A DNA stretch of 41,674 nt. Source: Capnocytophaga catalasegens. Lineage in GTDB: Bacteria > Bacteroidota > Bacteroidia > Flavobacteriales > Flavobacteriaceae. How positions within the stretch are numbered: the first letter of the stretch is position 1; the number at the start of each line of letters is the position of its first letter. Under the pieces are notes generated by a model. It had not been told where the DNA came from. It did no database searches and worked only from the letters and a program-made list of their open reading frames with translations. The position numbers and the translations under genes were made by a program. Shown here in pieces: positions 22,668 to 41,674 of the stretch. Location: positions 1-41,674 of the forward strand of contig NZ_BPMA01000005.1 of assembly GCF_026005215.1 (NCBI RefSeq). Reading direction: 5' to 3'.

Positions 22668-22704
22668 TCGGTCAAAAATCTTGATTTGTAAAAATCCAAA
22701 AAAA

Positions 22705-23278: not shown

Positions 23279-23343
23279 ATTTGTATGTCCGTTTAGTGTA
23301 ATAAATGATTTTTTCTGTGATAATTTATTAAAAATATAAACAC

Positions 23344-23373
23344 TTGGTTATCAATTGTATATCTTTATTTTTG
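23344..23373 (+). promoter_or_regulatory. Promoter for the lipoprotein at 23459
   Basis: TTG (23344-23346), a 19-bp spacer, and TATTTTTG (23366-23373): a full Bacteroidota -33/-7 promoter 86 bp before the ATG. Confidence 0.6.
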
Positions 23374-23458
23374 ACTTATAAAATTTAGCTACTAACTCTT
23401 TTATTAGTGATAACGGAAATACATAAACCTAAATTATAAATTTCAAAAAAATACAAAT

Positions 23459-24724: not shown

Positions 24725-24735
24725 AAATCAATCCA

Positions 24736-25041: not shown

Positions 25042-25053
25042 CCTCAAACAAAA

Positions 25054-25850: not shown

Positions 25851-25883
25851 GAATTTTGTAAATCTCAATAAATTATACCACAA

Positions 25884-26465: not shown

Positions 26466-26522
26466 AGCCAAAATGTTACCCATCATAGAGATGCAACACA
26501 AGTAGAAACGCAATACCATAAT

Positions 26523-26550
26523 GTAGAGACGCAATGCATTGCGTCTCTAC
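26523..26550. repeat. Perfect 28-nt palindrome, GTAGAGACGCAATG family
   Basis: GTAGAGACGCAATG followed by its exact complement CATTGCGTCTCTAC. Two degenerate half copies precede it (TAGAGATGCAACA at 26487 and GTAGAAACGCAATA at 26502). A longer, broken relative is at 27708-27753. The ends GTAG/CTAC recur in other palindromes of the window with different cores. Confidence 0.85.
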
Positions 26551-26597
26551 CATAACACAAAAACAATCCAAAATAGCACAAAAAGAACATAAATAAA

Positions 26598-26617
26598 GGG
26601 GCAAATCATTATTTGCC
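26598..26617. repeat. Palindrome of the GGGCAAAT/ATTTGCC family
   Basis: GGCAAAT (26600-26606), CATT, ATTTGCC (26611-26617): a 7-bp stem with a 4-nt loop. The same stem with loop CATA is at 27680-27697; a degenerate copy is at 36503-36524. Confidence 0.75.
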
Positions 26618-26656
26618 TAAAATCTTTTCTATTTTTAAACCATTCAAGGCGATAAA

Positions 26657-26688
26657 TTGCAAAAAAAGCAAATAATTACATAGTTTTG
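26657..26688 (+). promoter_or_regulatory. Promoter for the 262-aa protein gene
   Basis: TTG (26657-26659), a 21-bp spacer and TAGTTTTG (26681-26688) match the Bacteroidota promoter. The element also shows that an in-frame TTG at 26686 cannot be the start codon of the following gene. Confidence 0.65.
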
Positions 26689-26718
26689 TCCAATCACAAG
26701 AACAAAAATCATAAAAAA

Positions 26719-27507
26719 ATGAAGATAAAAACGCGTCCCAATCCGCCTTTGTTTCCAGAGATGAGCCACGAGATGAAAAAACTAGTGGAAGAAGCCTACC
26801 AATGGTTTATTCGTCCGTTAGGAAGCCATCTTACAGATGTTTGTACAGATTGTTGTGTAAGCAAACAAGACGAAACATTGCTTATCAAAACACCTGTGCA
26901 AGAACTTTCGGAAGATCTGATTTACCAATATTTAGATGCGGCTTATACCGATTGTCGTAGCAACGAAATCGCTCATTTTTTGCCCCGAATTTTAGAACTT
27001 TTGGCATCGCACAAACACATTCGACATTCTACCGAAATCACTTTGGATAAATGTCATTTCGAAGCTCCCTATTGGAAGCCGCAACAATTGGATTTTATAC
27101 ACCGATATTCAGCTCAGTACCTTACAGATTTGCTTAAAACTCCGCCAAAACAAACCCATTTGCCCAGTGCGACAGAAGTTATTGTAATGTTTTCATTATC
27201 AGGGATTGATGTGACACATCTTTTTTCTGTTTGGGAAGAAATGGCGACAAAATATCCCACTGCGGTAGCTCATTTTGCACAAATGATGCGTTATGAGGTA
27301 GATGATTATAGCACTTTTAACAATGTTTTTTGCGATAATCCTAAGTTTTATCAGCAAATAAATGATTGGTTGAATAGTTCGCAAACCGCAGCAATCTTTT
27401 TACCAGCCATTGAGCATTATTACTTTGAAAATGAAGATTTAAGCGAAGAGGAAAGTCGGCATTTTTCGTGTTTACATTCCCATTTGTCTAAAAAAGTGGG
27501 TAAATGA
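26719..27507 (+). CDS. Hypothetical soluble protein, 262 aa
   Basis: Begins MKIKTRPNPPLFPEMSHEMK. The protein is helical and rich in His, Tyr and Cys; CTDCCVS near residue 50 holds three Cys that might bind a metal, with His-rich segments later (SHKHIRHSTEITLDKCHF). No family recognised. I use the ATG at 26719, because the upstream TTG at 26686 lies within the promoter -7 element. It stands alone, with repeats on both sides. Confidence 0.65.
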   Translation: MKIKTRPNPPLFPEMSHEMKKLVEEAYQWFIRPLGSHLTDVCTDCCVSKQDETLLIKTPVQELSEDLIYQYLDAAYTDCRSNEIAHFLPRILELLASHKHIRHSTEITLDKCHFEAPYWKPQQLDFIHRYSAQYLTDLLKTPPKQTHLPSATEVIVMFSLSGIDVTHLFSVWEEMATKYPTAVAHFAQMMRYEVDDYSTFNNVFCDNPKFYQQINDWLNSSQTAAIFLPAIEHYYFENEDLSEEESRHFSCLHSHLSKKVGK

Positions 27508-27579
27508 TTTCAAAAATGAAGTAATATTTCCGTAGAGAAACAATTTTTTATATCTTTACAATTCCTCACAAGGGAAAAA

Positions 27580-27663
27580 TAACGCACTGCAACGCAAAAC
27601 TAACGTACCGCAATACAAAACTAATGTTCAAAAATACAAAACTAACGTACTGCAACGCAAGAA
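27580..27663. repeat. Four-unit 21-bp tandem array
   Basis: Units start at 27580, 27601, 27622 and 27643, each 21 bp, of the type TAACGYACYGCAAYRCAAAAC. The third unit is diverged in the middle. In one frame the array reads as heptads N-V/A-x-Q-x-K-T, but no start codon or ORF accompanies it. It lies between the 262-aa gene and the palindrome pair at 27676/27708. Confidence 0.8.
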
Positions 27664-27675
27664 TGATTCAAAATG

Positions 27676-27697
27676 GTAGGGCAAATCATAATTTGCC
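27676..27697. repeat. Palindrome GGCAAAT/ATTTGCC, second copy
   Basis: GGCAAAT (27680-27686), loop CATA, ATTTGCC (27691-27697), preceded by GTAG. Same stem as 26600-26617. Confidence 0.75.
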
Positions 27698-27707
27698 AAA
27701 AACAATC

Positions 27708-27753
27708 GTAGAGACACAAAACATCATATATACGCTATGCATTGCGCCTCTAC
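27708..27753. repeat. Degenerate GTAGAGAC ... CTCTAC palindrome
   Basis: GTAGAGACACAAAA at the left end and ATGCATTGCGCCTCTAC at the right, with about 15 bp of unrelated sequence between. It is a degraded or expanded copy of the element at 26523-26550. Confidence 0.6.
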
Positions 27754-27793
27754 TGCCACATAAAAACAATATAAAATAAAAGCAATACATCCT

Positions 27794-28918
27794 ATGAAAA
27801 ACAACGAAAATCATATTTTTTCTAAAAAAGAAGCCATTATAGAACACATTTATACTGATTGGAAAGAAATTTCTGAAGAAAATAGGTGTTTTTCGGAGGA
27901 AAATATTCAGAAATGTAGCCAAGATTTGGATAATTTTATCCGAAAAATGCAAAAATACCAACAAAATAACGCTCCACAGTCCGATTATGCTGAGGCGATT
28001 TACGAAATTTGTAAAAATCTGGCTACTTTCAGCCAAGAAGATGAAGAACCTGAGCATCTACACGGATTTTTATACGATATTTATACGGAAGAATTGAGTG
28101 ATTTTATTCGCGAGACGGCCTTTGAACACGGTTTTGAACTTCCTGATGCTGAAATTATAGCGACCAATGTGTTTTCGCTTCGTCATTCGTCTGAATTCAG
28201 GTATGAATACTTTTCTGTTTACATCGGAGAGGACGACCAAAACGGAATTTCGCTACTATACGACAGCGACCGCCATCGTTTTGAATATAATGAGAATCCG
28301 TATGGCGATGCTTATTCGTTGCCGATTTATAATTTCCGTAGGGGAGAAGCCGTTCATTTTGAGGTGCTTTGGCAGGGGCGTTACCGAAACATTAAGCTCG
28401 TTGCTCAGCATCCACAAGACGGCGTATGGCTAAAAATGTTGGCTTATTTACATCAAAATAGCGTTTTTCCGACCTTTCCTGACAAAGCTCCAGCCGATTT
28501 TTGCGATATTGAATTGGAAACCAAGCGAGGAAAGATAGCTACTTTGCGTATTATCAACAAAGATGACAAGGGATATATTATTCCAGAGTTTCAAAAAGGA
28601 GCAGGAATAGAGATTTTGACTTATGAAATCAATGAAAAAGGCGAATTACAGAGCGAATATTTAGTAAATCGACCCAAAGCGGTAGATAAAAAGCTGTTTT
28701 TATTTGGCGAAGAGCCGTATGGCGTGTGTTTTGAGGTGGTTTTGATAGCCTTTAAAGATGATTTTATAGAAGTTACAATCAAAAATAAGCCTTATCAATG
28801 CGATGCAGATGATAATCCGCAGATCGCCAATGCCCATCAGCAGACTTTTGCCCATCAACTGAAAACTTTTCCTTTTATGAAAGATTTTCTAAAAGAAATT
28901 ATAAATTTGAACATGTAA
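27794..28918 (+). CDS. Hypothetical soluble protein, 374 aa
   Basis: An acidic two-part protein. Residues 1-130 are helical and rich in Glu and Asn; residues 140-370 look like beta-rich domains (FRYEYFSVYIGEDDQNGISL, YDSDRHRFEYNENPYGDAYS, KKLFLFGEEPYGVCFEVVLI). No signal peptide, membrane segment or known motif. Family not recognised. No promoter of the standard form was found in the 286-bp gap upstream, which instead carries repeats. It is followed by a 21-bp periodic stretch leading to murD. Confidence 0.65.
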   Translation: MKNNENHIFSKKEAIIEHIYTDWKEISEENRCFSEENIQKCSQDLDNFIRKMQKYQQNNAPQSDYAEAIYEICKNLATFSQEDEEPEHLHGFLYDIYTEELSDFIRETAFEHGFELPDAEIIATNVFSLRHSSEFRYEYFSVYIGEDDQNGISLLYDSDRHRFEYNENPYGDAYSLPIYNFRRGEAVHFEVLWQGRYRNIKLVAQHPQDGVWLKMLAYLHQNSVFPTFPDKAPADFCDIELETKRGKIATLRIINKDDKGYIIPEFQKGAGIEILTYEINEKGELQSEYLVNRPKAVDKKLFLFGEEPYGVCFEVVLIAFKDDFIEVTIKNKPYQCDADDNPQIANAHQQTFAHQLKTFPFMKDFLKEIINLNM

Positions 28919-28946
28919 AATATTTTATAAAAAATGAAATAAACTA

Positions 28947-29160
28947 TTTTAAATAAAAAATTAAGTATCAATAATATAAAAATCAGTTTTAAAGATATGA
29001 AATTCGATTTTAATGATGTGAAAAATGATTTTAAAGACATAAAATGAATAATAAATGAAGTGAAATTTCGATTTAAAGATATGAAATAGCATTTTAAGTA
29101 AGTGTAATTTGATTTTAATTGACTGAAATAAAGTTTTGATATTATAAAATAAAATTTTTA
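28947..29160. repeat. 21-bp periodic array upstream of murD
   Basis: TTTTAA (or a variant) recurs at 28947, 28987, 29008, 29029, about 29071, 29092, 29113, 29134 and 29155, i.e. in steps of 21 bp (28987 being two steps from 28947). The best units read GATTTTAAAGATATGAAATT and GATTTTAATGATGTGAAAAA. The whole 389-bp gap from 28919 to 29307 has no gene that I can support; after 29160 it is AT-rich without clear structure. No standard promoter for murD was found here. Confidence 0.75.
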
Positions 29161-29307
29161 AATATCAAAATTGAAATAAAATCTTTTGTGATATATAAAA
29201 TAACAATAAAAATTGATATAAATTGAATCTAAAAATAATCAAAAATTATCATAATAGATATTGAAAAGGATTAAAAAAGTATTAGGTGATAAAAAATATA
29301 GCCAAAA

Positions 29308-30642
29308 ATGAAGAAATTAGTAATCTTAGGAGGAGGAGAAAGTGGTGTAGGAGCAGCAATTCTCGGTCAAAAGAAGGGTTGGGAAGTTTTTCTTTCAGAT
29401 AAGGGAAAAGTAGCTGAAAAATACGCCGAAATTCTCAATAAATATCACATCGATTGGGAAGATAATACACACACGGAAGAGAAAATTCTCATCGCAGATT
29501 GTATCATCAAAAGCCCAGGTATTCCAGAGAGCGTCCCAATTGTGAAAAAGGCAAAAGAAAAAGGAATAGAGATAATATCAGAGATAGAATTCGCTTTCCG
29601 ATATACGAAAGGGAAAATAATTGCAATAACAGGGAGCAACGGAAAGACGACAACCACCAGCCTAACGTATTATATCTTAAAAAATGTAGGATTAAACGTT
29701 GGCGTAGCAGGAAACATTGGGAAAAGTTTTGCGCAAATGGTTGCCGAAGATGATAAAGAGTACTACGTATTAGAGATAAGTAGCTTCCAACTTGATGGAA
29801 TTACAAGTTTTAGACCACATATTGCTATATTATTGAATATAACGCCTGATCATTTGGATAGATATGAGTATAAATTTGAAAAATATATCGAATCAAAGTT
29901 CAGAATAACAGAAAATCAATCTGAAAATGATTATTTTATATATGATATAGACGATCCAGTAATAAAAGAATGGATAAAAAACAATAAAATTAAGGCACAA
30001 CAGTTGCCATTTTCAATAGAAAAAGAAGTAAAACAAGGAGCTTTTTGTTCTAAAAATGAAATCATATTAACAATAAATACAAACATACTAACAATGAAAA
30101 CAGAAGAAATTGCAATCAAAGGAAAACACAATGTAAAAAATTCAATGGCAGGAGCTGCTGCTGCACTATTACTAAACACTCGTAAAGAATCTGTTCGTAA
30201 AAGTTTGACAACTTTCAAAGGAGAACCTCATCGGTTAGAGTTTGTCCGCGAAGTAGAAGGTGTACGCTACATCAACGATTCTAAAGCGACTAATGTTAAT
30301 TCTGTTTATTATGCATTAGACACCCTAGTAGCTCCTATTATTTGGATTGTGGGTGGACAAGACAAAGGCAATGATTATGGTTCTCTTATTCCTTTTGTTC
30401 GTAACAAAGTAAAAGCTATTATTTGTTTAGGTATTGATAATCAAAAAATTATAAATACATTCAAAGGCATAAAAGAAATTATTGCTGAGACTCATTCCAT
30501 GGAAGATGCAGTAACTATGGCAAAAAAATTGGCAAATGAAGGGGATACAGTATTGCTTTCGCCTGCTTGTGCAAGTTTTGACCTTTTCAAAAATTATGAA
30601 GAGCGTGGTAATTTATTCAAACAAAATGTAAAAGAATTGTAA
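29308..30642 (+). CDS. murD: UDP-MurNAc-L-alanine:D-glutamate ligase
   Basis: MurD adds D-glutamate to the peptidoglycan precursor in the cytoplasm. The N-terminal Rossmann motif LVILGGGESGVGAA and the P-loop ITGSNGKTTTT (residues 107-117) are clear, as are LNITPDHLDRY and NDSKATN (a MurD hallmark) near residue 330, and LSPACASFDLFKNYEERG at the C-terminus. Length 444 is normal. The middle part (about codons 190-290) uses more A-ending codons than the ends, but this is only an impression. It is the last dcw gene in the window; ftsW does not follow. Confidence 0.95.
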   Translation: MKKLVILGGGESGVGAAILGQKKGWEVFLSDKGKVAEKYAEILNKYHIDWEDNTHTEEKILIADCIIKSPGIPESVPIVKKAKEKGIEIISEIEFAFRYTKGKIIAITGSNGKTTTTSLTYYILKNVGLNVGVAGNIGKSFAQMVAEDDKEYYVLEISSFQLDGITSFRPHIAILLNITPDHLDRYEYKFEKYIESKFRITENQSENDYFIYDIDDPVIKEWIKNNKIKAQQLPFSIEKEVKQGAFCSKNEIILTINTNILTMKTEEIAIKGKHNVKNSMAGAAAALLLNTRKESVRKSLTTFKGEPHRLEFVREVEGVRYINDSKATNVNSVYYALDTLVAPIIWIVGGQDKGNDYGSLIPFVRNKVKAIICLGIDNQKIINTFKGIKEIIAETHSMEDAVTMAKKLANEGDTVLLSPACASFDLFKNYEERGNLFKQNVKEL

Positions 30643-30698
30643 AATATATTTCCTTTCTGGCAAATTTTATCAGACAGCTATAACTTCAAAAAAAATTG

Positions 30699-30706
30699 TA
30701 TCTTTG
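30699..30706 (+). promoter_or_regulatory. -7 element for miaB
   Basis: TATCTTTG matches TAnnTTTG and is 21 bp before the miaB ATG. No -33 TTG seen. This separates miaB from the murD transcript. Confidence 0.55.
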
Positions 30707-30727
30707 TCCCTTATCAATAAGATATAA

Positions 30728-32173
30728 ATGGAAAAAATAATTGACGAAAGCAAACAAGGAACAAGCCTTGTAATAGAGGCAAACGAAAAGAATGCTCGAA
30801 AATTATATATTGAAAGTTATGGCTGTCAGATGAACTTTTCGGATAGTGAAATCGTAGCATCTATTTTGGCAAAAGAAGGATTTAATACAACGCAAATCTT
30901 GGAAGAAGCTGATTTGGTGTTGGTTAACACATGCTCTATTCGCGAGAAAGCTGAACAAACCATTCGCAAACGATTGGAGCAATTCAATGCCGTAAAAAGA
31001 CATCGTCCTGCAATGAAAGTAGGTGTTTTGGGATGTATGGCTGAGCGATTAAAACATAAATTTTTGGAAGAAGAACATATCGTTGATTTGGTCGTTGGAC
31101 CAGATGCCTATAAAGATTTGCCTAATTTGTTGGAAGAGATTGATAATGGACGTGAAGCTATCAATGTTATTCTTTCCAAAGAAGAAACATACGCTGACAT
31201 CTCCCCTATTCGACTGAATTCCAATGGAATAACAGCTTTTGTATCTATCACTCGAGGGTGTGATAATATGTGTACTTTTTGTGTAGTTCCTTTCACACGT
31301 GGAAGGGAAAGAAGTCGTGACCCTCAGTCTATTATCAACGAAATCAATGATTTATACGAAAGAGGATTTAAAGAAATCACACTTTTGGGACAAAATGTAG
31401 ATAGTTATCTTTGGTATGGAGGCGGACTGAAAAAAGATTTTGATAAAGCCTCTGATATTCAGAAAGCAACTTCGGTTAATTTCGCTCAATTATTAGATCT
31501 TGTTGCCAGCCGATTTCCTAAAATGCGTATTCGATTTTCTACTTCCAATCCGCAAGATATGACTCTTGATGTTATTCACACAATGGCACAATATCATAAT
31601 ATTTGTAAATCAATTCACCTACCTGTACAGAGTGGAAGTAATCGTATCTTACAGGCAATGAATCGATTACATACGCGTGAAGAATATTTTGAGTTGATTG
31701 ATAATATTCGTCGTATTATTCCCGAATGTGGTATTTCGCAAGATATGATAGCAGGATTTCCAACAGAAACCGAGCAAGACCATCAAGATACGCTTTCGCT
31801 GATGCAATACGTAAAATACGATTTTGGGTTTATGTTTGCTTATTCGGAACGACCAGGAACACTTGCAGCACGTAAAATAGAAGATGACATTCCTGAAGAA
31901 GTAAAAAAACGTCGATTAGCTGAAATCATTGACCTTCAACAACAACATAGTATGGAACGAACTCAGGCACAGATTGGGAAAATTGTTGAAGTTTTAGTCG
32001 AAGGAAATTCTAAAAAATCTGACCAACATTGGATGGGACGAAATACACAAAATACTGTGGTTGTTTTTCCAAAAGAAAATTATCGAAAAGGAGATTTTGT
32101 CAATGTGAAAATTACAAGTTGTACATCAACAACACTTATCGGTGAGGCTATCGGATATGGCCAAATGCAATAG
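30728..32173 (+). CDS. miaB: tRNA-2-methylthio-N6-dimethylallyladenosine synthase
   Basis: A radical SAM methylthiotransferase that modifies A37 in tRNAs. The N-terminal UPF0004 domain has the three cluster Cys (33, 69, 103), and the radical SAM cluster motif CDNMCTFC supplies Cys178, 182 and 185. [33 protein letters not shown] and the C-terminal TRAM domain (about residues 410-475) complete the family pattern. At 481 residues it is complete. Its position directly after murD with its own promoter shows the dcw order is broken here. Confidence 0.96.
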
Positions 32174-32506
32174 AACTAAGCGAATTTATTATTTTTTACT
32201 ACAATGAAAATATTAGATGAATTCTTCATTTATCAGAAATACCAAGAATTCAGTAAAGATATGAATAAAAGTTTATTTTATTGTACAAAAAGAATAGATT
32301 AAAAAAACAATAGATATTTTCAACAAATAACTATTTTCATAAGTAATTTCAAAATAAAACAACCTTTTAAATAGAGATAAAACAACTCTTGATGATTTTA
32401 TAAAATTATCAGGTAGATTTTTCAAATTTACCTTAATATTTTCAAATAATAAGCTGATTTGCAAATAGTTAAAAATATTTCTATACTTTTTTCATTATTG
32501 AAAAAA
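32174..32506. other. Gene-free AT-rich gap after miaB
   Basis: 333 bp between the convergent miaB and the WG-like gene. A 32-codon frame at 32204-32302 (MKILDEFFIYQKYQEFSKDM...) has an ATG and a peptide-like composition, but is too short and unsupported to call a gene; it could be a remnant. I see no hairpin terminator or repeat. Confidence 0.4.
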
Positions 32507-33967
32507 TTAATCAAAATATTCTTTAAAAGTTTGAATATCAAGCCAACCCTTTTGTCCATTTTTACTTATTAAGTAAAAAGAATTTGTCTTTTTTTCAATG
32601 GAATCATACTCAGGTATTTTATGTTTAGGATAAATACCTATCTTATTTTCTTTATAAAAATAAATAAGACCATCTTCTTGCATTATAATTTCATCATAGA
32701 TAAATGGTAGCAATTGTTCTACTGAAATTGATTTATTTTCTGCTTGATAATCATAATGTATCAAACCATATTTTCCGTTTCTTTTTACTCTAAGTAGTGA
32801 CGGATTTAAATAAAATCCTTGAGAAATATAAGTATTTTCTGTCCATAGACATGTTTTTTCTTTATTTAAAAACGAAACTTCATCAGAAATCTTAAGTCCG
32901 TTCAAGAAAATAATTTTTGAAAATTCGGGTACAACATAACCTGTTTTTTTTATAATATAATGGCTTTTTCCTTTTTTTAGTTGATATGATTCTACATTAA
33001 CAGCACCACATAAAAATTTTTCTCTCCAACTAATTCTATCAATTTCTGGTGAAATAATGCTGTAATACTTAGCTTCTTTGCTGGTCATTACTTCAATTCC
33101 TTCTTGGTATAAATAGGCTTTTTTTAGGTTTTCTATAGGGAATTTTTCTAAAAAAATAGTGTATATATCTGTATTTTTTTCATTTTCCCCTATTATAAAG
33201 TAATTATTGAAATTTAAATTTTCATAAGAATTTTCAAGAATTTTATTATTAAAAGCATCTACAAGTTGATATTTATCACTGTTTTCTACCTTTTTCTTTT
33301 GTAAAGAACCTTTTACATCTTTATAGGAAAAATCCTCGTCATTTATAACATTAGTAATAGAAGTAGGTTTAATTTTACTAAATGTTAGTGGAGGAATATT
33401 TAGAAAATTTCCTTCATAGGTAGGGATTAGTTGCCAATTCTTTGCTATATAAATTTTTAAACTATCTCTAAGAAGTAATGTAACAGGATTTGAGAAATTA
33501 CTAATAACTCTATCAATAGTATCATTTACAATTTTATTATTTTCTGCATTATCAAGATATTTTTTATAATTATAAACCCTATGAAAACCTTCAATACACA
33601 GGTTTTTATTAAGAAATGAGCAGAAGTATTGATGTTCATTTTCCCAATCAGTAGTCCAAGTTTTACCGATAAAATCTTGAATAGTTGTTACTTTTATATC
33701 TTTTAAAAATAATATTTTTTTAGATTTTTGCTGAATTTCAGAAATAGTTTCTAATCTTCCATACTCTCTCACTGAAATACTTTTAAGGTTATTATCTTCG
33801 GAAATAACAACACGTATTTGTTGAAAGAGATTGCTCCCACATGATTTGTAGTAAAATACTCCATTATATTTACTAATTCTAATCAATTCAATTTGAGGAA
33901 TTTCTACGCTCTTTTGCCCCCAAGTACAGAAAGGAAATAACAGAATAAGTATAAAAAATCGTTTCAT
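32507..33967 (-). CDS. Secreted WG-repeat-like protein
   Basis: A 486-residue exported protein. The signal peptide MKRFFILILLFPFCTWG precedes QKS, a typical cleavage site of the phylum. The C-terminal third has WG/KWG-type repeat features (RKNGKYGLIHYDY, FIYDEIIMQEDGLIYFY, KENKIGIYPKHK, SKNGQKGWLDI) which in such proteins form a beta-structure of unknown role. The first half is not recognised. It is convergent with miaB and has no clear promoter in the 335-bp gap upstream. Confidence 0.7.
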   Translation of the reverse strand: MKRFFILILLFPFCTWGQKSVEIPQIELIRISKYNGVFYYKSCGSNLFQQIRVVISEDNNLKSISVREYGRLETISEIQQKSKKILFLKDIKVTTIQDFIGKTWTTDWENEHQYFCSFLNKNLCIEGFHRVYNYKKYLDNAENNKIVNDTIDRVISNFSNPVTLLLRDSLKIYIAKNWQLIPTYEGNFLNIPPLTFSKIKPTSITNVINDEDFSYKDVKGSLQKKKVENSDKYQLVDAFNNKILENSYENLNFNNYFIIGENEKNTDIYTIFLEKFPIENLKKAYLYQEGIEVMTSKEAKYYSIISPEIDRISWREKFLCGAVNVESYQLKKGKSHYIIKKTGYVVPEFSKIIFLNGLKISDEVSFLNKEKTCLWTENTYISQGFYLNPSLLRVKRNGKYGLIHYDYQAENKSISVEQLLPFIYDEIIMQEDGLIYFYKENKIGIYPKHKIPEYDSIEKKTNSFYLISKNGQKGWLDIQTFKEYFD

Positions 33968-34291
33968 ATAGAATGAGATTTTAGATAATTTATAGCTTTT
34001 AAAGTTTTTTCTATTGATTTTTTTGCTAAAAAAATTAATATTCTACTATAAAGTTTGTTGTAGATTTTCTTTAGAAAAAATCACATAAGTAATTAGCAAT
34101 ATTTGTGCCGAAATTTATCAGAATTAATTTTAAATAATAAAGAATAGTTCTTTTTATTAGGCAAATGATGGAAATCACAAAAAGATTTAGTAAGTTTTTT
34201 AACCTTTAAAATAATATTGAAAAGGATAAGAGTAAAGATAATGATAGTTTGTAAGATGAGGTACTTACTGAATTTTCTTTAATAAAAAAAG
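33968..34291. other. Gap between two minus-strand genes
   Basis: About 320 bp, very AT-rich. I see no gene, no CAAANNTA promoter element for the minus strand and no repeat. The terminator of the next gene starts at 34292. Confidence 0.4.
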
Positions 34292-34319
34292 AAAAAGCTA
34301 TCCTATCGGATAGCTTTTT
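34292..34319 (-). terminator. Bidirectional-type terminator overlapping the stop of the DUF4932-like gene
   Basis: AAAAAGCTATCC (34292-34303), loop TATC, GGATAGCTTTTT (34308-34319): a perfect 12-bp stem, T-rich on both strands. The minus-strand stop codon (TAG, 34303-34305) lies inside the stem and loop, so the hairpin encodes the last residues (KKAIR). Confidence 0.85.
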
Positions 34320-35494
34320 TAGCTATATTTTCTGCCCACGAAAGTATATAATGATATAATTCTTTCATTGGGATGTTAGGATTTTGTTTGTATTTGTCCA
34401 AAAGAGCACGATTAAAGTCTTTGAAACGAACAAAACCTCGAGAATTCTGCATCATATTTTCCAAATAAGGAATAAAATTCTCAACGTCTTTTGCCTCGTA
34501 ATTGTCACTGATATACAGGCTGAATAAAGCAAAAGTCATATACTCATTATAAACTTTGTAAGAAGAATCATACATCGTAATGCTTTCTCTTTCAATCCAT
34601 TCCGAAGTGAAAATTTTGTTTATTCGGCTGATAATTCCATATTCCAACGAAAGAGGGTTTACGTAATTGTGGTCGATTTCCGTAAAAACAACCCAACTTG
34701 CGTGCAATTCATTGCTGATTTTGGACAATTTTTCATCTTCCGAAACCTTTGCAACAAACATAAGGGCTTGTTTGAAGTTGTTATTTTCGTGCTGAATGGT
34801 CGCTTGAGCTCCTTTGTTCAGCGGTGAAAAATAAATAAGATAAGAATCATAGCCGAAACCGAATTTGTTCTCCAACCAATTTTTCATTTTTGTAAGGGGA
34901 ACTAATTTGTGATAATCCGTTAGTAAATTATCATAATATAATTTGTTATCTTGGTGGGATTTTCTAAAATTTGACTTTTTAGCAAAATCTTCAAAAACAG
35001 CCAAATCTATCATTGGGTCAAATGTATGCCAATCCAATGCTATTTCGCGAATAAATCCGTTGTTTTTTATGTTTCCTTCTTTATCAAAAATATAAGCACA
35101 AGTATTCATTTTCAGTGCATAAAAATAATTGTAGCTATCTTTTGAAAATAAATAAACGCCCAACTGCGGATGAAGCTTGGGCGAAGGCATATGCTTTTCA
35201 ACTAATGCCACCTCAGGGTGTGAGCGAAAAGGAGCAAAATATTCCTTAACTCGCTTATAATAAATCGGTTTGCGTGTCGAACATATTGTTGTCTTTTTCG
35301 GCATCTTTGTATAGTGCCAAAATAACATTTACAAGTTCGCTAACTTCGGGAATATCAATCAGCATTTTCCCTTTGTAATGCTGAATATATTCTGGTGTGA
35401 AATTTTCATTGGGAGCAATTCCTACCAAGCGAATATTTATTTTCTCGTCTTCGGACAGATTTTCTATAAATGAAATTTCCCAAAATAAGATTCC
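34303..35494 (-). pseudogene. DUF4932-like protein gene with a frameshift and missing 5' end
   Basis: The main frame (34303-35328) encodes a 341-residue stretch with YYKRVKEYFAPFRSHPEVAL ... LPLT... of the DUF4932 type, a putative exported peptidase-like family. Upstream of about 35264 another frame continues in the protein direction: ILFWEISFIENLSEDEKINI, YIQHYKGKMLIDIPEVSELV, ending DTQTD, which joins YYKRVKEY if one T is removed from GATTTATTATAAG. The first residues MLFWHYTKMPKKTTICSTRK of the apparent ORF are therefore out of frame. The 5' end with the signal peptide is also absent. Not functional as it stands. Confidence 0.7.
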
Positions 35495-35500
35495 CTACGC

Positions 35501-35530
35501 TTGTTTATTTTGAAAAACAGACTATCTTTA
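35501..35530 (+). promoter_or_regulatory. Promoter-like element before the lipoprotein pseudogene
   Basis: TTG (35501-35503), 19 bp, TATCTTTA (35523-35530); the last base departs from TAnnTTTG. It lies 15 bp before the ATG of the broken lipoprotein gene. Confidence 0.4.
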
Positions 35531-35544
35531 CCCAAAAAAATCCT

Positions 35545-35769
35545 ATGAAAAAACTTTTATTGCTAACTTTTGCGTTAGCCCTAACTGCTTGTTAAACAAA
35601 TCAACAGACACAAAATCAGACCATGAAGACAGAATGGAACCGAAACTATGGCAGTGCCGACAAATCATACGATACAGACCTGCTATCATTGCGAGAGAAA
35701 ATCGCTCCGAAGTTTCAGAAATTTAGTTATAAAGACGAAAAACGGGTTTGTCGGGTGAGAGAATCGTAG
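35545..35769 (+). pseudogene. Truncated lipoprotein gene with a stop right after the lipobox
   Basis: MKKLLLLTFALALTAC is a full lipoprotein signal peptide, followed directly by TAA (35593-35595). The same frame goes on TNQQTQNQTMKTEWNRNYGS, DTDLLSLREKIAPKFQKFSY, KDEK, then loses its sense at the fusion point (about 35740) and stops at 35769. The beginning resembles exported esterase/hydrolase lipoproteins, but the catalytic part is missing, so I do not name it. Its 3' end overlaps the end of the csaA pseudogene on the other strand. Confidence 0.75.
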
Positions 35770-36055
35770 CTTGTTTGCCGTCGATAGCTCCAAGAAGCAG
35801 ACACTCGCTCTGAATGATAGCAATTTGCTTTTTGGGAAAATTCACAACGGCGGTAACTTGCTTTCCGATGAGTTATTCTGGCGAATAAAGTACCGTAACC
35901 TGTGCCGATGTTTTTCGCATTCCGATTTCTCCAAAATCTATCGTAATGATATACGCTGGATTTCGTGTCTCTTTGAAAACCTCCGCATTTACTATCGTTC
36001 CCACACGAATATCTATTTTCTCAAAGTCCGCCCAAGTGATTAATTCTTTATTCAT
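35723..36055 (-). pseudogene. csaA: CsaA (tRNA-binding domain) gene with an in-frame stop
   Basis: 110 codons in the same frame with a TAA at 35873-35875. The first part, [20 protein letters not shown] then [15 protein letters not shown] ... [14 protein letters not shown], and the part after the stop, LIGKQVTAVVNFPKKQIAII then QSECLLLGAIDGKQATILSP, together match CsaA along its full length. CsaA is an export-associated chaperone with a tRNA-binding (OB) fold. Its normal ending after PDKP (usually PNG.R/KIG) is replaced by VFRLYN, encoded by the antisense of the lipoprotein fragment. Nonsense mutation plus lost 3' end: inactive. Confidence 0.88.
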
Positions 36056-36072
36056 TATATTGAAGTTTTTCG

Positions 36073-36103
36073 CAAAAGTATTTATTTCTAAAGCAATTCC
36101 AAA
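36073..36103 (-). promoter_or_regulatory. Promoter of the csaA pseudogene
   Basis: On the minus strand TTTG (36100-36103), a 19-bp spacer and TACTTTTG (36073-36080), 18 bp before the ATG: an intact Bacteroidota promoter in front of a dead gene. Confidence 0.65.
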
Positions 36104-36209
36104 ACATTTATAATGGTTAGTTGTTAATTATCAATGGTTAATGATAAATTATAAATTACTAATGTTTCTCATCAATTAATAACGCATATCAATCGTCAGG
36201 GATTAAATT

Positions 36210-36436
36210 CTTTTATGCGTTCTTAAATTAAAAATATATTTTTTATCTTTTAAGAGTTCTTAAAACACTAAACGGAAAACATTTTGACCTTTTAAGAGTT
36301 CTTAAAATGCTAAACGGAAAACTTTTTGAGCTTTTAAGAATACTTAAAATGCTAAACTGAAAACTTTTCGAGCTTTTAAGCGTTCTTAAAGGATTGTCCG
36401 AATAATTTTTTGATATTTTATGTATTCTTAAAAAGT
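36210..36436. repeat. 42-bp tandem array A (core AAGAGTTCTT)
   Basis: TTTTA(A/T)G-x-TTCTTAAA palindromes start at 36211, 36248, 36290, 36332, 36374 and 36416, the last five at exact 42-bp steps. The best units (36248, 36290, 36332) are TTTTAAGAGTTCTTAAAA, then a C-T-AAACGGAAAAC block and about 10 bp of spacer. The palindrome has an 8-bp stem with a 2-nt centre. The units degrade outward. Array B at 37714-37935 has the same plan. The 535-bp gap 36056-36590 holds no gene. Confidence 0.85.
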
Positions 36437-36502
36437 TTAATATTATATCTAGACACAATATATTGCATATATACGATATCAATTTTAATTAATTTCAGCA
36501 TT

Positions 36503-36524
36503 GTAGGGTCAAATAATTATTTGC
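36503..36524. repeat. Degenerate GTAGGG/ATTTGCC palindrome
   Basis: GTAGGGTCAAATAATTATTTGCC: a variant of the GGCAAAT/ATTTGCC element at 26600 and 27680. Confidence 0.55.
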
Positions 36525-36537
36525 CAGAATGATAAAA

Positions 36538-36561
36538 GGGCGAAAAATGTTTCGCCCCTAC
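36538..36561. repeat. Palindrome GGGCGAAA/TTTCGCCC with CTAC end
   Basis: GGGCGAAA (36538-36545), loop AATG, TTTCGCCC (36550-36557), then CTACA: 8-bp stem, 4-nt loop, in the gap just behind the yeiH-like gene, where it may also act as a transcription end. Confidence 0.8.
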
Positions 36562-36590
36562 AATGAAAAATTTTCTAACAATCAAAATCT

Positions 36591-37529
36591 TTAAACATAA
36601 TGCGTTACCACCCAAAGACTTCCGATACTTATGAAAATCCACAAGGCAATAGCTAAAACAAGGGGTTTGATTCCGATGTTTTTAAGGTTTCCCACAGAAA
36701 GCGTTGTACCGATTAAGAAGAGTGTAAGGTGCAATCCTGCTTTGGAAATATCTGTTATGATAGGAGATATTTCTTGTACCGCCTGAAAGTAAGTATTTAT
36801 CAAAATTGCCAACACAAAAAGACCAATAAACCACGGAATTTTCACTTTAGCACTGCCATTTTTGAACATAAAAAGCGTAACTATTGACAGTGGAATAATC
36901 CACAAGGCACGAGCCAGCTTAACCGTCATTGCTATTTTCAGAGCCTCGTTTCCGTACTTACTTGCCGCACCCACTACCGAACTCGTATCGTGAATTCCGA
37001 TGGCACACCACAAGCCGAAATCGTGTTGCGAAAGCTCCAGCCAATGTCCCACCGCAGGGAAAACAAACAACGCTACCGAGTTGAGCGTAAACACAATAGC
37101 TAATGCTACTGAAATATCCTTTGGCGAGGGTTTCACAATGGGTGACACTGCCGCAATGGCACTTCCGCCACAAATTGCGGTTCCTGTTGAGATAAGATAT
37201 GAAAGTGGCGTGGGAATTTTGAGCAATTTTCCTAAAATCCAACCCAATGTCAGCACTGCAACAATGCTGATTACGGTGATTCCGAAACCTGACTTCCCTG
37301 CCTGTAAAGCCTCATCGAGGTGCAACCCAAAACCCAGCCCTACAATAGCAATTTTTAGTAATAAATGAATGTATTTGTTCGATTTCTCCTGATACGGATT
37401 TCTTATTAGAAACGAAGTGAAAAACCCCAACGACAGTGCCACCGGCGACGAAATCCAAGGGGTAAGACAAAGAACAACGAGCATTAGAAAAATGATTTTC
37501 TTGTAAATGTTATTTTCAGTACTAGCCAT
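36591..37529 (-). CDS. YeiH/UPF0324 family putative sulfate exporter
   Basis: A 312-residue inner-membrane protein with about ten helices of the YeiH (UPF0324) family. Diagnostic parts are LGFFTSFLIRNPYQEKS, IVGLGFGLHLDEALQAGKSG, STGTAICGGSAIAAVSPIVK (residues 115-134), LWCAIGIHDTSSVVGAASKY, and IKPLVLAIALWIFISIGSLW. The family is annotated as putative sulfate exporters; transport has not been shown broadly. It has a good promoter. Both sides carry 42-bp tandem arrays, so the gene is an isolated single-gene unit. Confidence 0.92.
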   Translation of the reverse strand: MASTENNIYKKIIFLMLVVLCLTPWISSPVALSLGFFTSFLIRNPYQEKSNKYIHLLLKIAIVGLGFGLHLDEALQAGKSGFGITVISIVAVLTLGWILGKLLKIPTPLSYLISTGTAICGGSAIAAVSPIVKPSPKDISVALAIVFTLNSVALFVFPAVGHWLELSQHDFGLWCAIGIHDTSSVVGAASKYGNEALKIAMTVKLARALWIIPLSIVTLFMFKNGSAKVKIPWFIGLFVLAILINTYFQAVQEISPIITDISKAGLHLTLFLIGTTLSVGNLKNIGIKPLVLAIALWIFISIGSLWVVTHYV

Positions 37530-37574
37530 TTTTAGAAGAATAATTTTAAATTAAAAAAATCTATTTAATGGGGA

Positions 37575-37606
37575 CAAAAGTAATAAAGTACATTATTTTC
37601 TGTCAA
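37575..37606 (-). promoter_or_regulatory. Promoter of the yeiH-like gene
   Basis: On the minus strand TTG (37604-37606), 21-bp spacer, TACTTTTG (37575-37582), 46 bp before the ATG. Confidence 0.6.
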
Positions 37607-37713
37607 GAAAATACGCGATTTTTTTTGAATATTCAAAATTAAACCCAACACCATCAGGATTTTTGGAAAAACAATCAATCAGCTTCGAGAATATATTTTT
37701 CTCATTTACAAAG

Positions 37714-37935
37714 CATTCACTGAAGTGAAAACCTTCAACGGAAAGTAAAATAACCTTTTCACTATAACGAAAATCTTCAACAGAAAACAAAACAGCCTTT
37801 TCACTGTAATGAAAACACTCAACGGAAAGCAAAATAGCATTTCACTATAGTGAAAACATTCAGCAGAAAACAAAATAGCCTTTTCACTACAATGAAAACA
37901 CTTAGCAGAAAGCAAAACACTCTTTTCACTGCAGT
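37714..37935. repeat. 42-bp tandem array B (core CACTRYARTG)
   Basis: TTCAC starts at 37716, 37758, 37800, 37841, 37883 and 37925: steps of 42, 42, 41, 42 and 42 bp. Consensus: TTTTCACTRYARTGAAAA, then CAYTCARCRGAAARC, AAAAYAGCC. Against array A the blocks AAAACACT and AACGGAAA are the same and equally spaced; only the 10-bp palindromic core differs. The 629-bp gap 37530-38158 holds no gene; it has the yeiH promoter at one end and a GH92 promoter at the other. Confidence 0.9.
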
Positions 37936-38094
37936 CTTTTCAAAATTTGTAATATTGATTCAGAATAAGAAAAATATTTTTGTAGATTTGCCAAACAAAT
38001 TCTAACATTCTTTGTTTGTTTGAATTATCTATTTTTCCAAAAAAAGTAAAATAAAGAACAATGTCGAAAAATAGGTCAAATGCAAAAAAAATAC

Positions 38095-38102
38095 TATATT
38101 TG
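38095..38102 (+). promoter_or_regulatory. -7 element of the GH92 gene
   Basis: TATATTTG matches TAnnTTTG, 57 bp before the ATG. No clear -33 TTG. Confidence 0.5.
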
Positions 38103-38158
38103 CGTGATAATTCAGCAATCTAAAACACAGCGAAAATTCAAACTAAAATTTTAGGATA

Positions 38159-40432
38159 ATGAGAAAAAAACACATCACATCATTGGCGTTTTTAGGACTG
38201 ATGATAGCTTCGTGCAACGAAGTAAAACAACCTGTAACTGAGCAACAAACAGAGCAAAAACCACTCACGAGTTTCGTAAATCCGTTTATCGGAACGGGCG
38301 GACACGGGCATACGTACCCCGGAGCTGCCGTTCCTTTCGGGCAATTACAAGTCAGCCCCGTGAACGGAATTAGTGGCTGGGATTGGTGTTCGGGCTATCA
38401 TCACAGCGATAGTTTGGTCATCGGATTTGGGCATTTGTCGCTCAGCGGAACGGGTATCGGCGATTTGAACGATATTTTGCTGATGCCAGTCAATAAAGAA
38501 TATGATTTGTCGCAGCTTTCCACGGGGAAGGAAGACCAATACCCGAAAGCCGCTCTCGATTTTCGCAATCAAGTGCCGTACAAATCTCGCTACTCGCACC
38601 AAAATGAAAAAGCCGAACCAGGGTATTATCAAGTTTTCTTGGAAGACCCGGAAGTAAATGTGGAACTTACTGCCGACCAATACGTTGGAGTACATAAATA
38701 TACGTTCCAAAAAGGCGATATGCAATCTGTAATTCTCAATTTAGGATTTGCCATCAATTGGGACAACCCGACCGAAATGAGCATTCGTCAAAGCGACCAA
38801 AAATTGGACGGACAAAACGTAGGAAACATCATCACAGGCTACCGATTCAGTACGGGCTGGGCAAAAAATCAGAAAGTGTTTTTTGCGATTAAATTTTCTA
38901 AGCCAATTAAAAAAATCGAACTTCATCAAAATGAAAAACAAATTTCTTCGGGACAATTCTTTTTTGATGAAACTACAAATGAAGAATTGGAAGTTCGTGT
39001 AGCTCTTTCTTCTGTAAGTGAAGATGATGCTTTGGATAATTTGGATTTGAACGACAACCGCTCCTTTGCTGAAATCCGTCAAAAAGCTCACGATACTTGG
39101 GAAAAACATCTTTCTTCCATAGAAATCGAAACGTCGGTAGATTCGCTCAAAACGATTTTCTACACGGCTTTGTACCACGCTCAGGTGGCTCCTGTTACTT
39201 TTTCGGATAAAAGTGGTAAATTTCGTCAGCAAAATGATGAAATTTATACCGCCAAAGATTTTACAGCCTATTCTACTTTGTCATTGTGGGATACGTTCCG
39301 TGCTGAAAATCCGCTTATTACTTTGCTTCAACCCAAAGTGTCTTCGGATATTATCAACTCAATGTTGGCTTATTCAGATGTAATTCAAAAACTTCCCGTT
39401 TGGACGCTCTACGGCAACGAAACCGATTGTATGACGGGTTATCATTCCATTCCCGTAATTGTGGAAGCGTACTTAAAAGGCGTTCGTTCGTTCGATGCCG
39501 AAAAAGCCTACCAAATGATGAAAAAAACGATGATGGGAGACGAACGCGGACTGAAATTCTACAAGCAATACGGCTACATTCCGTACGATAAATGGGACGA
39601 ATCGGTAACTATCACACTCGAATATGCGTATGACGATTGGTGTGTGGCACAAATGGCAAAAGCCTTAGGAAAAACCGATGATTACGAGTTCTTTATGAAA
39701 CGAAGTGAGGCATACAAACATTTGTTCGACCCTGCTACGGGCTTTATGCGAGGCAAATCGGCAAGTGGAAAATGGCGTGAACCTTTCGACCCGAAACATT
39801 CCAACCACCGCGAAGCCACCGATTACACCGAAGGAAATGCTTGGCAACACTCGTGGTTCGTGCCGCACAATCCGAGCGGACTGATAAACGCTTTTGGGGG
39901 CAACGAGCCGTTTGTAGCTCATTTGGAAAAATTATTTACCGAAAGCTCTGAGATTACGGGCGATAACGTTTCGGCGGACATCACGGGGCTTATCGGGCAG
40001 TATGCACACGGCAACGAACCGAGCCATCATATTGCGTATTTGTTCAACAAAGCTGGAATGCCGCACCGCACACAATATTGGGTGAATGAAATCCTCAAAA
40101 CGCAGTACAACACGACGCCCAACGGCTTGGCAGGAAATGAGGACTGCGGACAGATGTCGGCTTGGTACGTGTGGAGTTCCATTGGTTTGTACCCGATGAA
40201 TCCAGCTTCGGGTGAGTATGAAATAGGGCGTCCGTTATTTCCGAAAGCGAAAATAAATCTTCCTAACGGGAAAACGTTTACCATTATCGCTGAAAATGTT
40301 TCTGCTGAAAATATGTACATTCAGTCGGCAACGCTCAACGGACAGCTTTTTGAAGGATTTACAATTTCTGATGAAACCCTCAAAAAAGGAGGCGAATTAA
40401 AATTTGTTATGGGAGCGAAACCAAAGAGGTAA
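38159..40432 (+). CDS. GH92 family alpha-mannosidase, lipoprotein
   Basis: A surface or periplasmic glycosidase that removes mannose from glycans such as N-glycans. The signal peptide MRKKHITSLAFLGLMIASC ends in a lipobox (Cys19). SFVNPFIGTGGHGHTYPGAA (residues 39-58) is the start of the GH92 domain, followed by FGHLSLSGTGIGDLNDILLM, YSTLSLWDTFRAENPLITLL, ETDCMTGYHSIPVIVEAYLK and GNEDCGQMSAWYVWSSIGLY (acidic catalytic region). Length 757 is normal. Together with the sulfatase it suggests host-glycan foraging, though no SusC/SusD pair is in the window. It has its own promoter and is a single gene. Confidence 0.95.
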   Translation: MRKKHITSLAFLGLMIASCNEVKQPVTEQQTEQKPLTSFVNPFIGTGGHGHTYPGAAVPFGQLQVSPVNGISGWDWCSGYHHSDSLVIGFGHLSLSGTGIGDLNDILLMPVNKEYDLSQLSTGKEDQYPKAALDFRNQVPYKSRYSHQNEKAEPGYYQVFLEDPEVNVELTADQYVGVHKYTFQKGDMQSVILNLGFAINWDNPTEMSIRQSDQKLDGQNVGNIITGYRFSTGWAKNQKVFFAIKFSKPIKKIELHQNEKQISSGQFFFDETTNEELEVRVALSSVSEDDALDNLDLNDNRSFAEIRQKAHDTWEKHLSSIEIETSVDSLKTIFYTALYHAQVAPVTFSDKSGKFRQQNDEIYTAKDFTAYSTLSLWDTFRAENPLITLLQPKVSSDIINSMLAYSDVIQKLPVWTLYGNETDCMTGYHSIPVIVEAYLKGVRSFDAEKAYQMMKKTMMGDERGLKFYKQYGYIPYDKWDESVTITLEYAYDDWCVAQMAKALGKTDDYEFFMKRSEAYKHLFDPATGFMRGKSASGKWREPFDPKHSNHREATDYTEGNAWQHSWFVPHNPSGLINAFGGNEPFVAHLEKLFTESSEITGDNVSADITGLIGQYAHGNEPSHHIAYLFNKAGMPHRTQYWVNEILKTQYNTTPNGLAGNEDCGQMSAWYVWSSIGLYPMNPASGEYEIGRPLFPKAKINLPNGKTFTIIAENVSAENMYIQSATLNGQLFEGFTISDETLKKGGELKFVMGAKPKR

Positions 40433-40544
40433 ATACGTTATTTAACCAAAAAGAATTCATGGGAAATTTAAAAGTAGAAAAGAAAACAAAGATAATTCTT
40501 ATAAAGTCTACATAACACGAAATACTGAAAAATTAGTTGCTACA

Positions 40545-41279
40545 GTGCATTTAAAAGATGATAATGGTACAATTATTCAAACAAAAACAGCCACACTTAC
40601 AATTTTGCATAAAGGTGTTGCTATTTATATTGCTTTTCCCGATTACAAAGCTGACCCTGAAATAAACATCCCTCTTCCAAAAGGGAAAAATATTAAAATT
40701 CCTAAAATAGAAACAGGTCACGCAGGAATTTTATTAATAGAAAGCGATGGTTATACTGCGTATTATGAATATGGTCGATATCCTCATTCTTGGGATAAGA
40801 CCAAAGGATATGTAAGAAGAAAAACTGTTCCTAATGTCAAGTGGAATGGAAGTGGATTAATAGATATCTCTGAGCTGAATAAAGTTTTAAGTAAAATTTC
40901 TCAACAATCGGGAGATAATGGAAATATTATTGGTGCTTATATAGAGACAAATTATATAAATAGAATGCTGTCTTATGCTGAACAAAAACATATAGAAAGT
41001 GTTCCCAATGATATCAATGACCCAACACCTCATAAACATCACGCAAAAGATTATGAAAATATAGAACACATAGAATATTCCAAAGATCGAAAAGAATATA
41101 ATTTATTTTCTAATAATTGTGGCACTTTTGCATTAGATGTTATTCGAGCAGATGAAAATGTTGCATCTCCTTGGGTTGTTATAAAAACAACTCCAAATGA
41201 TATTTTAGAAGAATTTTTTGATGAAGGGCATAAAAGAGTCTTTTATAATTCAAAAACAAAAGAAACAATTTTAGAATAA
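40545..41279 (+). CDS. Truncated toxin-like protein with permuted NlpC/P60-like domain
   Basis: Starts at a GTG (MHLKDDNGTIIQTKTATLTI) but the same frame is open back to about 40446 without an ATG (SRKENKDNSYKVYITRNTEK). An ATG at 40459 is in another frame, so the 5' end is missing or frameshifted. The domain has His59 in TGHAGILLIES, an aromatic motif YTAYYEYGRY, and Cys192 in LFSNNCGTFALDV. His before Cys is the order of permuted papain-like (LRAT/NlpC-like) enzymes, many of which are peptidoglycan or protein hydrolases in bacterial toxins and secretion-system effectors. The next gene encodes a membrane protein that could be its immunity partner. Confidence 0.5.
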   Translation: MHLKDDNGTIIQTKTATLTILHKGVAIYIAFPDYKADPEINIPLPKGKNIKIPKIETGHAGILLIESDGYTAYYEYGRYPHSWDKTKGYVRRKTVPNVKWNGSGLIDISELNKVLSKISQQSGDNGNIIGAYIETNYINRMLSYAEQKHIESVPNDINDPTPHKHHAKDYENIEHIEYSKDRKEYNLFSNNCGTFALDVIRADENVASPWVVIKTTPNDILEEFFDEGHKRVFYNSKTKETILE

Positions 41280-41283
41280 AAAG

Positions 41284-41616
41284 ATGATACAAAAAAAACA
41301 ACTATATATCAGTTATGGATTTTTATTTTGTGTAATAATAAGTCCCATAATAGCTCTTTCATTTTTATTCGATCAGGATCTTTTCAGAAATGAAATTATC
41401 GAATTTATTTGTGGTGGTATTTTTGTTATAACTTACTTGCTTTTCCCTATTTTTTTTATATATCAAATTATCTTAAAAGTAAAGAAACGCTCCAAAAGAA
41501 AAATATTTATTATCTCTATTATAACGTTTTTATTATTCATCTTATCTATTGTATTTTATTATTATCTATATCATATAGTAGATGAGGCTATAACCCGAAG
41601 ATATCAATCAATGTAA
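41284..41616 (+). CDS. Small membrane protein, candidate immunity partner
   Basis: 110 residues with three hydrophobic helices (about 7-28, 35-57 and 68-90) and a charged loop KVKKRSKRK. It starts 4 bp after the end of the toxin-like gene, so the two are probably cotranscribed. Small membrane proteins in this position often protect against cell-wall or periplasmic effectors. No family recognised; the role is inferred only from position. About 58 bp of AT-rich sequence follow to the window edge. Confidence 0.6.
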   Translation: MIQKKQLYISYGFLFCVIISPIIALSFLFDQDLFRNEIIEFICGGIFVITYLLFPIFFIYQIILKVKKRSKRKIFIISIITFLLFILSIVFYYYLYHIVDEAITRRYQSM

Positions 41617-41674
41617 AAACATCATAAAGGCATAATGATTGTATAAAAAATATAATTGTATATCCGTAATCACT

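Follow-up and report, generated by a model that had tools for sequence, protein, structure and literature searches.

Two 42-bp repeat arrays flanking yeiH in Capnocytophaga catalasegens and their relationship to arrays upstream of DUF6261 genes

In type III toxin-antitoxin systems of the ToxIN kind, a small gene is directly preceded by a tandem array of short units, and more than one array sequence exists. Iteron and operator arrays are phased direct repeats with dyads that stand beside a gene which may encode their binder. The BrickBuilt minisatellite/MITE of Porphyromonas gingivalis is a 23-base repeat with leader and tail ends, present in 19 copies in one strain (PMC4596501). The intergenic TAACTGA direct repeats are seven bases long and have one fixed sequence, and many of them are placed near start codons (PMC4679880). 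Here we report on two arrays with a step of 42 bp on either side of yeiH in Capnocytophaga catalasegens and on the arrays related to them. The genome has 2.9 Mb, and its contig 5 is the window, i.e. the whole stretch of 41,674 bp that was analysed.

Arrays A and B and the genes around them

The yeiH gene (36591..37529, minus strand; Pfam PF03601, Cons_hypoth698) has an array on either side. Array A (36233..36433, minus strand) consists of five 42-bp units with the core AAGA-NN-TCTT between TTTT and AAAA; its anchors lie at 36248, 36290, 36332, 36374 and 36416, so that every step is 42. Array B (37714..37930, minus strand) has six units with the core CACT-NN-AGTG and anchors at 37714, 37756, 37798, 37839, 37881 and 37923, with a single step of 41 and all others of 42. 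In both, the 10-base core is flanked by TTTT and AAAA, and the best copies continue with CACT-N-AACGGAAA. A preliminary description of this DNA had reported two 42-bp-step arrays flanking yeiH with common blocks and differing dyad cores, and this is what the region contains. The units that it quoted are exact in unit 1 of A and unit 3 of B but inexact in the remaining copies, and the core, said to be kept within each array, is kept only loosely, since cores vary between copies in both. Those of array A are AAGAGTTCTT in two copies, then AAGAATACTT, AAGCGTTCTT and ATGTATTCTT; those of array B are CACTGAAGTG, CACTATAACG, CACTGTAATG, CACTATAGTG, CACTACAATG and CACTGCAGTC. The B core that had been quoted as a palindrome, CACTGTAATG, is an imperfect one.

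The two arrays are related in sequence. Their best ungapped 42-base window has 29/42 matches; of 2000 column-permuted controls, with a mean of 23.5 and a maximum of 30, 3 came up to this value. In the first survey, A and B were mutual best matches among the sampled clade-1 arrays. When five A and five B units were aligned, the frame was conserved and three symmetric pairs differed between the arrays. These three dyad pairs are changed on both sides and the pairing exceeded that of all 500 shuffles, a result that depends on a single difference between the two arrays. The B family, represented by five units here and five in another species, showed no double change, and its pairing was at the level of the shuffled units; core changes within this family break the dyad instead of preserving it. 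Compared with tandem-preserving shuffles, fold z values of the two strands were -2.43 and -1.57 for array A alone, and -0.27 and -0.90 for the first three units of array B. A search of 26000-41674 of the window against Rfam at the gathering threshold gave no match.

Both arrays stand upstream of promoter-like motifs. The motif of yeiH, TTG-N21-TACTTTTG (37575..37606, minus strand), ends 45 bp before the ATG, and array B starts about 107 bp beyond, i.e. upstream of it. The other one, TTG-N19-TACTTTTG (36073..36102, minus strand), ends 17 bp before the ATG of a reading frame which we take to be csaA-like, and array A starts about 130 bp upstream of this motif. The start of the csaA-like frame (35873..36055, minus strand) is closed by an in-frame stop, which interrupts a frame extending down to 35723 on the same strand. 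A and B share one orientation relative to the two motifs. A terminator-like hairpin (36536..36559, minus strand) lies directly 3' of yeiH, between this gene and array A, which hence stands past it; in 35700-38300, 3 terminator-like sites were found versus 1.9 expected. On the far side of array B, a GH92 glycosidase gene (38159..40432, plus strand) has TAnnTTTG motifs 56, 168 and 176 bp before its ATG. Array B occupies the divergent gap between yeiH and GH92 and is thus also upstream of the latter.

At E<=0.001, yeiH had matches in 6 of 20 species; in five, among which this genome is counted, identity was at least 62%. In tblastn searches, yeiH beside GH92 was seen only in this genome and in none of the flanks from 14 other species. 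TRF detected no 42-bp array within 1.5 kb upstream of the 14 other GH92 orthologues, one of which has two 21-bp units about 1 kb away. Upstream of murD, the same window holds another 42-bp array, with a sequence different from A and B (28987..29118, plus strand). About 6.6 kb of extra genes and three repeat arrays (22681-29300) separate mraY from murD here, and these two genes are near neighbours in L186 and L187, from two other species of the genus. Two near-alike genes of 180 aa (10024-10566 and 16036-16578) lie about 6 kb apart in the cell-wall gene region.

Four-turn arrays upstream of DUF6261 genes

Arrays were surveyed in 20 species of the genus by running TRF on sampled stretches that amounted to 0.8 to 2.0 Mb, and the genes beside 113 array records (some of them doubled because of overlapping loci) were clustered. 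Besides other families, this yielded two with the array 5' in every record, namely DUF6261, with 8 records from 6 places, and a second one, with 10 records. Proteins of the second family have 226-246 aa, most of their starts resemble MNENLHQNEQ, and no Pfam match was found in the two members scanned. A recurring 21-bp array family lies upstream of their genes (L278, L288, L291, L292, L293, L300, L301), at 68-106 bp in six loci and at 102 and 263 bp in L292. Profile comparison gave no support to a relationship between this family and DUF6261 (probability 1.7%).

The number of DUF6261 (PF19775) copies per species of the genus ranges from 0 to 29, with 163 matches in 14 of the 20 species, and the genome studied here has 29; the family is present in 4/198 genomes of the class, this one included. 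For a periodicity test, 84 distinct DUF6261 genes with at least 250 bp upstream were used, of which 77 belong to the genus and 7 to three other genera, and the strongest lag between 12 and 129 was determined in up to 450 bp upstream. This lag was 41-43, 82-86 or 123-129 for 76/84 DUF6261 genes versus 69/466 other genes, the controls being genes outside DUF6261 whose gap measured at least 150 bp, for which 450 bp were analysed. Such lags led in 132/800 cases of a looser control, and in 6/6 DUF6261 genes from the sample that gave the 466 controls, 3/6 of which had a TRF array. TRF called arrays at 43/84 DUF6261 genes (600 bp searched) versus 12/466 others (450 bp searched); with 450 bp in both sets, the numbers were 12/28 versus 18/498, some of these 18 being DUF6261 genes themselves. 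Lag identity upstream of DUF6261 peaked at 42, 84 and 126 (z of 18.6, 14.1 and 10.0), while the downstream side gave a weak signal, with z 4.0 at lag 42. The step was not seen at 8/84 genes (L359, L322, L375, L311, L330, L315, L369, L343).

Outside the genus, the step was present in 6/7 loci. Four named genes from Prevotella, Parabacteroides and Riemerella agree with it, two of them with clear arrays. In Prevotella nigrescens, 2.8 units of 41 bp reach the annotated start, and lag 41 comes second to 120 in 450 bp; one gene of Parabacteroides distasonis has 4.0 units of 42 bp. The second P. distasonis gene, where lag 41 barely leads, and the Riemerella anatipestifer gene, with leading lags of 82/41, obtained no TRF call. 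In these three genera, DUF6261 was met on plasmid-labelled records (L391-L394), some of which hold der, era, mnmG or ybeY and may be chromosome pieces. When empty sites of insertion were sought, the flanks of another DUF6261 locus (L318) lay apart in 4 of 5 genomes searched, and a single flank was found in the fifth. We regard the linkage of DUF6261 with a four-turn array as secure. Many arrays of the genus adjoin genes other than DUF6261, and therefore the array class is wider than this family.

In the members scanned with Pfam, DUF6261 was the only family above the cut-off, and searches with Pfam, PADLOC and solved-structure profiles revealed no recognised DNA-binding domain. PADLOC returned six families, each for one of 37 members, with a best E of 0.0027. 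When the DUF6261 profile was compared with solved structures, the one hit at E<=1 was to part of a 'circular tendon repeat protein' and was read as a coiled-coil-like chance match; five single queries found no relatives in viral and phage collections. DUF6261 is reportedly named in a Streptococcus oralis study.

Relatives of A and B and repeat arrays across the genus

Among the 84 DUF6261 upstream regions, the best match for A and for B alike was that of L263, from another species (G004). Its array, 26 bp upstream of the DUF6261 gene, shows 75% identity to array B over 176 bp and carries the B core, and its best 42-base windows have 37 matches with B and 30 with A. The protein encoded at L263 is 86% identical to that of L368, a DUF6261 gene of the C. 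catalasegens genome whose array carries a third core, GACATTTGTC. Array A matches the L368 array at 29/42, which was reached in 0/1000 permutations; B as a whole matches it at 23/42, the chance level (319/1000 permutations), and only a short block is common to them. This block, TCYGTTGAGTGTTT, is found in B and, save one base, in A. Relative to the gene, the array frame is inverted between L263 and L368. The question of whether the pattern is limited to the yeiH locus is thus answered, as arrays with a constant frame and a changed core also stand at the DUF6261 genes L263 and L368.

Array sequences were shared by 9/10 pairs of DUF6261 proteins with at least 80% identity, by 3/5 pairs at 70-80%, by 2/15 at 60-70% and by 24/411 at 30-60%, sharing being defined as at least 29 matches in a 42-base window (in 97 unrelated pairs, the 95% limit was 28.2 and the maximum 30). 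The L263/L368 pair is the exception at the top of the identity range. Sharing falls with protein identity, so arrays come to have new sequences but retain the step. The array of another DUF6261 gene, L259, recurs in related form at two other sites in the C. catalasegens genome. Arrays A and B show the step and the sequence relation of the DUF6261-linked class; because the window gave no hit for a DUF6261 gene, we treat them as orphan relatives and not as members of this class. Judged from sequence comparison, they are best seen as orphans of the L263/L368 array family that now stand before two other promoters. An origin of both from one ancient array split by yeiH is possible and compatible with this reading.

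Across the genus, the periods of intergenic arrays called by TRF were mostly 21, 22, 41-43, 63, 82-84 and 126, with minor ones such as 11, 14, 18, 66, 120, 166 and 187. In clade 1, 50/61 arrays of period >=18 were near 21n versus 23% of periods expected there, in a sample for which some stretches had been picked for already holding arrays. Self-identity of non-coding DNA peaked in this clade chiefly at 21, 42, 63, 84, 105 and 126, and in G007 and G009 at multiples of 11, plus 7 and 14; loci outside the genus gave a fainter trace at 7, 14, 21 and 42. In G007 and G009 (L138-L157), intergenic periodicity is mainly 11n (11 to 121), and a step of 41 occurs upstream of one of the two DUF6261 genes in the former and of the single one in the latter. 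Between G002 and G003, an array differs by one whole 84-bp unit, with flanks about 97% identical on both sides. Related arrays are found at non-orthologous places and their homology does not extend past the arrays; on inspection by eye, L259 and L260 nevertheless have some 30 bases in common beside the array. In seven clade-1 species, one 21-bp family gave matches with E below 1e-7. Arrays did not keep to the 3' ends of genes as a rule: of those in tandem gaps, 16/28 were nearer the 3' end. The same gene of 365 aa is adjoined by arrays of 84/85 bp, largely different in sequence, in G002/G003 (L306 5586-5829; L307 5238-5511, given strand) versus G005/G019 (L109 1513-1782; L304 3183-3537), the latter with a CCCCCTTTGAAGGGGG-type palindrome inside the unit. 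Beside this gene in G004, there was no TRF array.

Two expectations of the preliminary description were followed through the genus. A search for TTTT-N10-AAAA at 42 bp, which is a weak probe, gave forward counts above the reversed control in only 6/20 species. Palindrome enrichment at p<0.05 was found in 3/48 sampled arrays of clade 1, 1/14 of clade 2 and 1/5 outside the genus; therefore, palindromes are not a general feature of the arrays. Among the consensus units of DUF6261 arrays, 5/42 passed a dyad test at p<0.05 (Wilcoxon p 0.0035), so that the claim of palindromic cores beyond chance holds only moderately for DUF6261 arrays and not for arrays of the genus in general. As to arrays paired around a gene, DUF6261, the one gene that can be compared, has its arrays on the upstream side and little more than a weak signal downstream.

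Possible roles of the arrays and comparison with known systems

If the arrays belonged to a type III-like toxin-antitoxin system, they would be transcribed as a repeat RNA neutralising the DUF6261 product. Tandem repeats of about 42 bases directly 5' of the gene would suit this, as would a patchy, multi-copy distribution (0-29 per species, 4/198 genomes of the class). However, the promoter motif TAnnTTTG occurs 15-60 bp before the ATG in 26/84 DUF6261 genes versus 195/466 other genes, being absent there in 58/84 and no commoner before DUF6261 than before other genes. The full TTG-N17..21-TAnnTTTG motif has 33 matches at DUF6261 genes, of which 18 end 22-41 bp before the ATG; at this distance, the promoter would lie between array and gene in most cases. 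Phasing between array and promoter motif was unconvincing, with 7, 11, 13 and 15 of 200 shuffles in the best four of 16 tests. Neither is the sense fold energy lower than the antisense one: compared with shuffles, z was -2.63 and -2.60, respectively, for 43 DUF6261 arrays (Wilcoxon p 0.79). Against tandem-preserving shuffles, the mean z of 42 DUF6261 arrays was -1.46 on one strand (15 below -2) and -1.41 on the other (14), and that of a general sample of 32 arrays, some of them DUF6261-linked, was -0.94 and -0.73 (4 below -2 on each). The inversion of the frame between the two 86%-identical proteins, the lack of a convincing PADLOC match and the absence of viral or phage relatives with the five queries also speak against an RNA antitoxin, which we consider very unlikely. 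Since the excess of inverted repeats is equal on both strands and the promoter motif is found in 26/84, a DNA-level, helically phased binding array is favoured. The sequence data speak for dyads acting in DNA rather than for an RNA antitoxin, although neither is proven.

The arrays might also be neutral minisatellites, gained and lost through slippage or unequal recombination that favours whole helical turns; A and B would then be one old array that was split by yeiH and drifted, and the link with DUF6261 an inherited position. We find this doubtful. The genus-wide occurrence of intergenic arrays, with 21n in one clade (50/61) and 11n in two species of another, agrees with it, and so do the whole-unit copy change between species, the sequence relation of A and B and the adjacency of yeiH and GH92 in 0 of 14 other species' flanks; yet the 41-43 step is seen at 76/84 DUF6261 genes independently of the array sequence, including genes in G007 (one of two) and G009, whose other arrays step by 11, and genes of Bacteroidales, and the downstream sides of DUF6261 genes show little step. 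Inherited position is insufficient, because the step is constant while the sequence is replaced. Alternatively, without any sequence-specific partner, curved DNA with phased A-tracts could bend the nucleoid or the DNA upstream of promoters. In an AA-wedge model, curvature z was above 2 in 12/24 clade-1 arrays versus 16/80 array-free gaps, and values for A, B and the murD array were 6.5, 2.8 and 6.7. Nevertheless, when the reference was unit-shuffled tandem arrays, 11/18 were above the mean in the AA model (mean z 2.19) and 12/18 in the full wedge model (mean z 0.83), there was no A-tract periodicity of 10-11 bp within units, and the DUF6261-linked arrays L113 and L243 were uncurved (z -0.7 and -0.2), with L125 curved (3.1). 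Curvature as the sole function is unlikely.

We favour, with a probability of about one half, the reading of A and B as stand-alone relatives of helically phased arrays that usually stand immediately before DUF6261 genes. The array would serve as a platform of double-stranded DNA, which a dimeric protein would occupy at every fourth turn, always on the same helix face and beside the promoter. That the array works as DNA next to a promoter is likely; the binder could be a partner or the DUF6261 product itself, the latter being our guess. In that case, the product would act on the promoter of its own gene and also, in trans, on satellites like A and B. Copies would be gained or lost as whole units and homogenised within the array, so that number and sequence would change and the helical phase would not. 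The preliminary description had proposed an own partner for each array, or an active homogenisation; either would agree with a step of 41-43 bp that most DUF6261 paralogues combine with a repeat sequence of their own, but the palindromes are weak. Tentatively, DUF6261 might be a large family of solo DNA-binding proteins, each with its own fast-changing array, protein and array diversifying together and giving orthogonal protein/array pairs in one genome (29 copies) with a fixed four-turn spacing, and the orphans A and B might bring csaA-like and yeiH under a DUF6261 paralogue on contig 12.

As in type III toxin-antitoxin systems, the array stands directly upstream of one gene, also at DUF6261; in contrast to them, DUF6261 arrays have no strand-specific fold, a promoter motif is near the gene in 26/84, no known toxin model was convincingly matched in the members scanned and array orientation is variable. 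They differ from iteron and operator arrays in that up to 29 solo genes per genome have, mostly, an array sequence of their own. With BrickBuilt they share the nature of an intergenic tandem minisatellite with promoter elements in Bacteroidota (PMC4596501); the units are, however, of 41-43 bp, mostly locus-specific in sequence and usually upstream of one gene family, and instead of the conserved leader and tail with inverted-repeat ends, homology ends at the array edges. The likeness to TAACTGA repeats lies in short direct repeats before genes, in some Bacteroidetes too (PMC4679880). In the literature searched, as far as its available text extends (including PMC4060949, PMC3940949 and PMC5771137), neither a pairing of DUF6261 with arrays nor arrays of the genus Capnocytophaga were found. 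The change of repeat sequence under a constant four-turn spacing points to arrays and DUF6261 as an undescribed DNA-level module, in which a numbered family is now paired with a DNA element whose helical step is fixed and whose sequence is free. The pairing gives DUF6261 its first testable role, and DUF6261 arrays explain part of the odd repeat-rich intergenic DNA in the genus. Dozens of parallel protein-array pairs are a natural set in which to watch DNA-binding specificity change with the geometry held.
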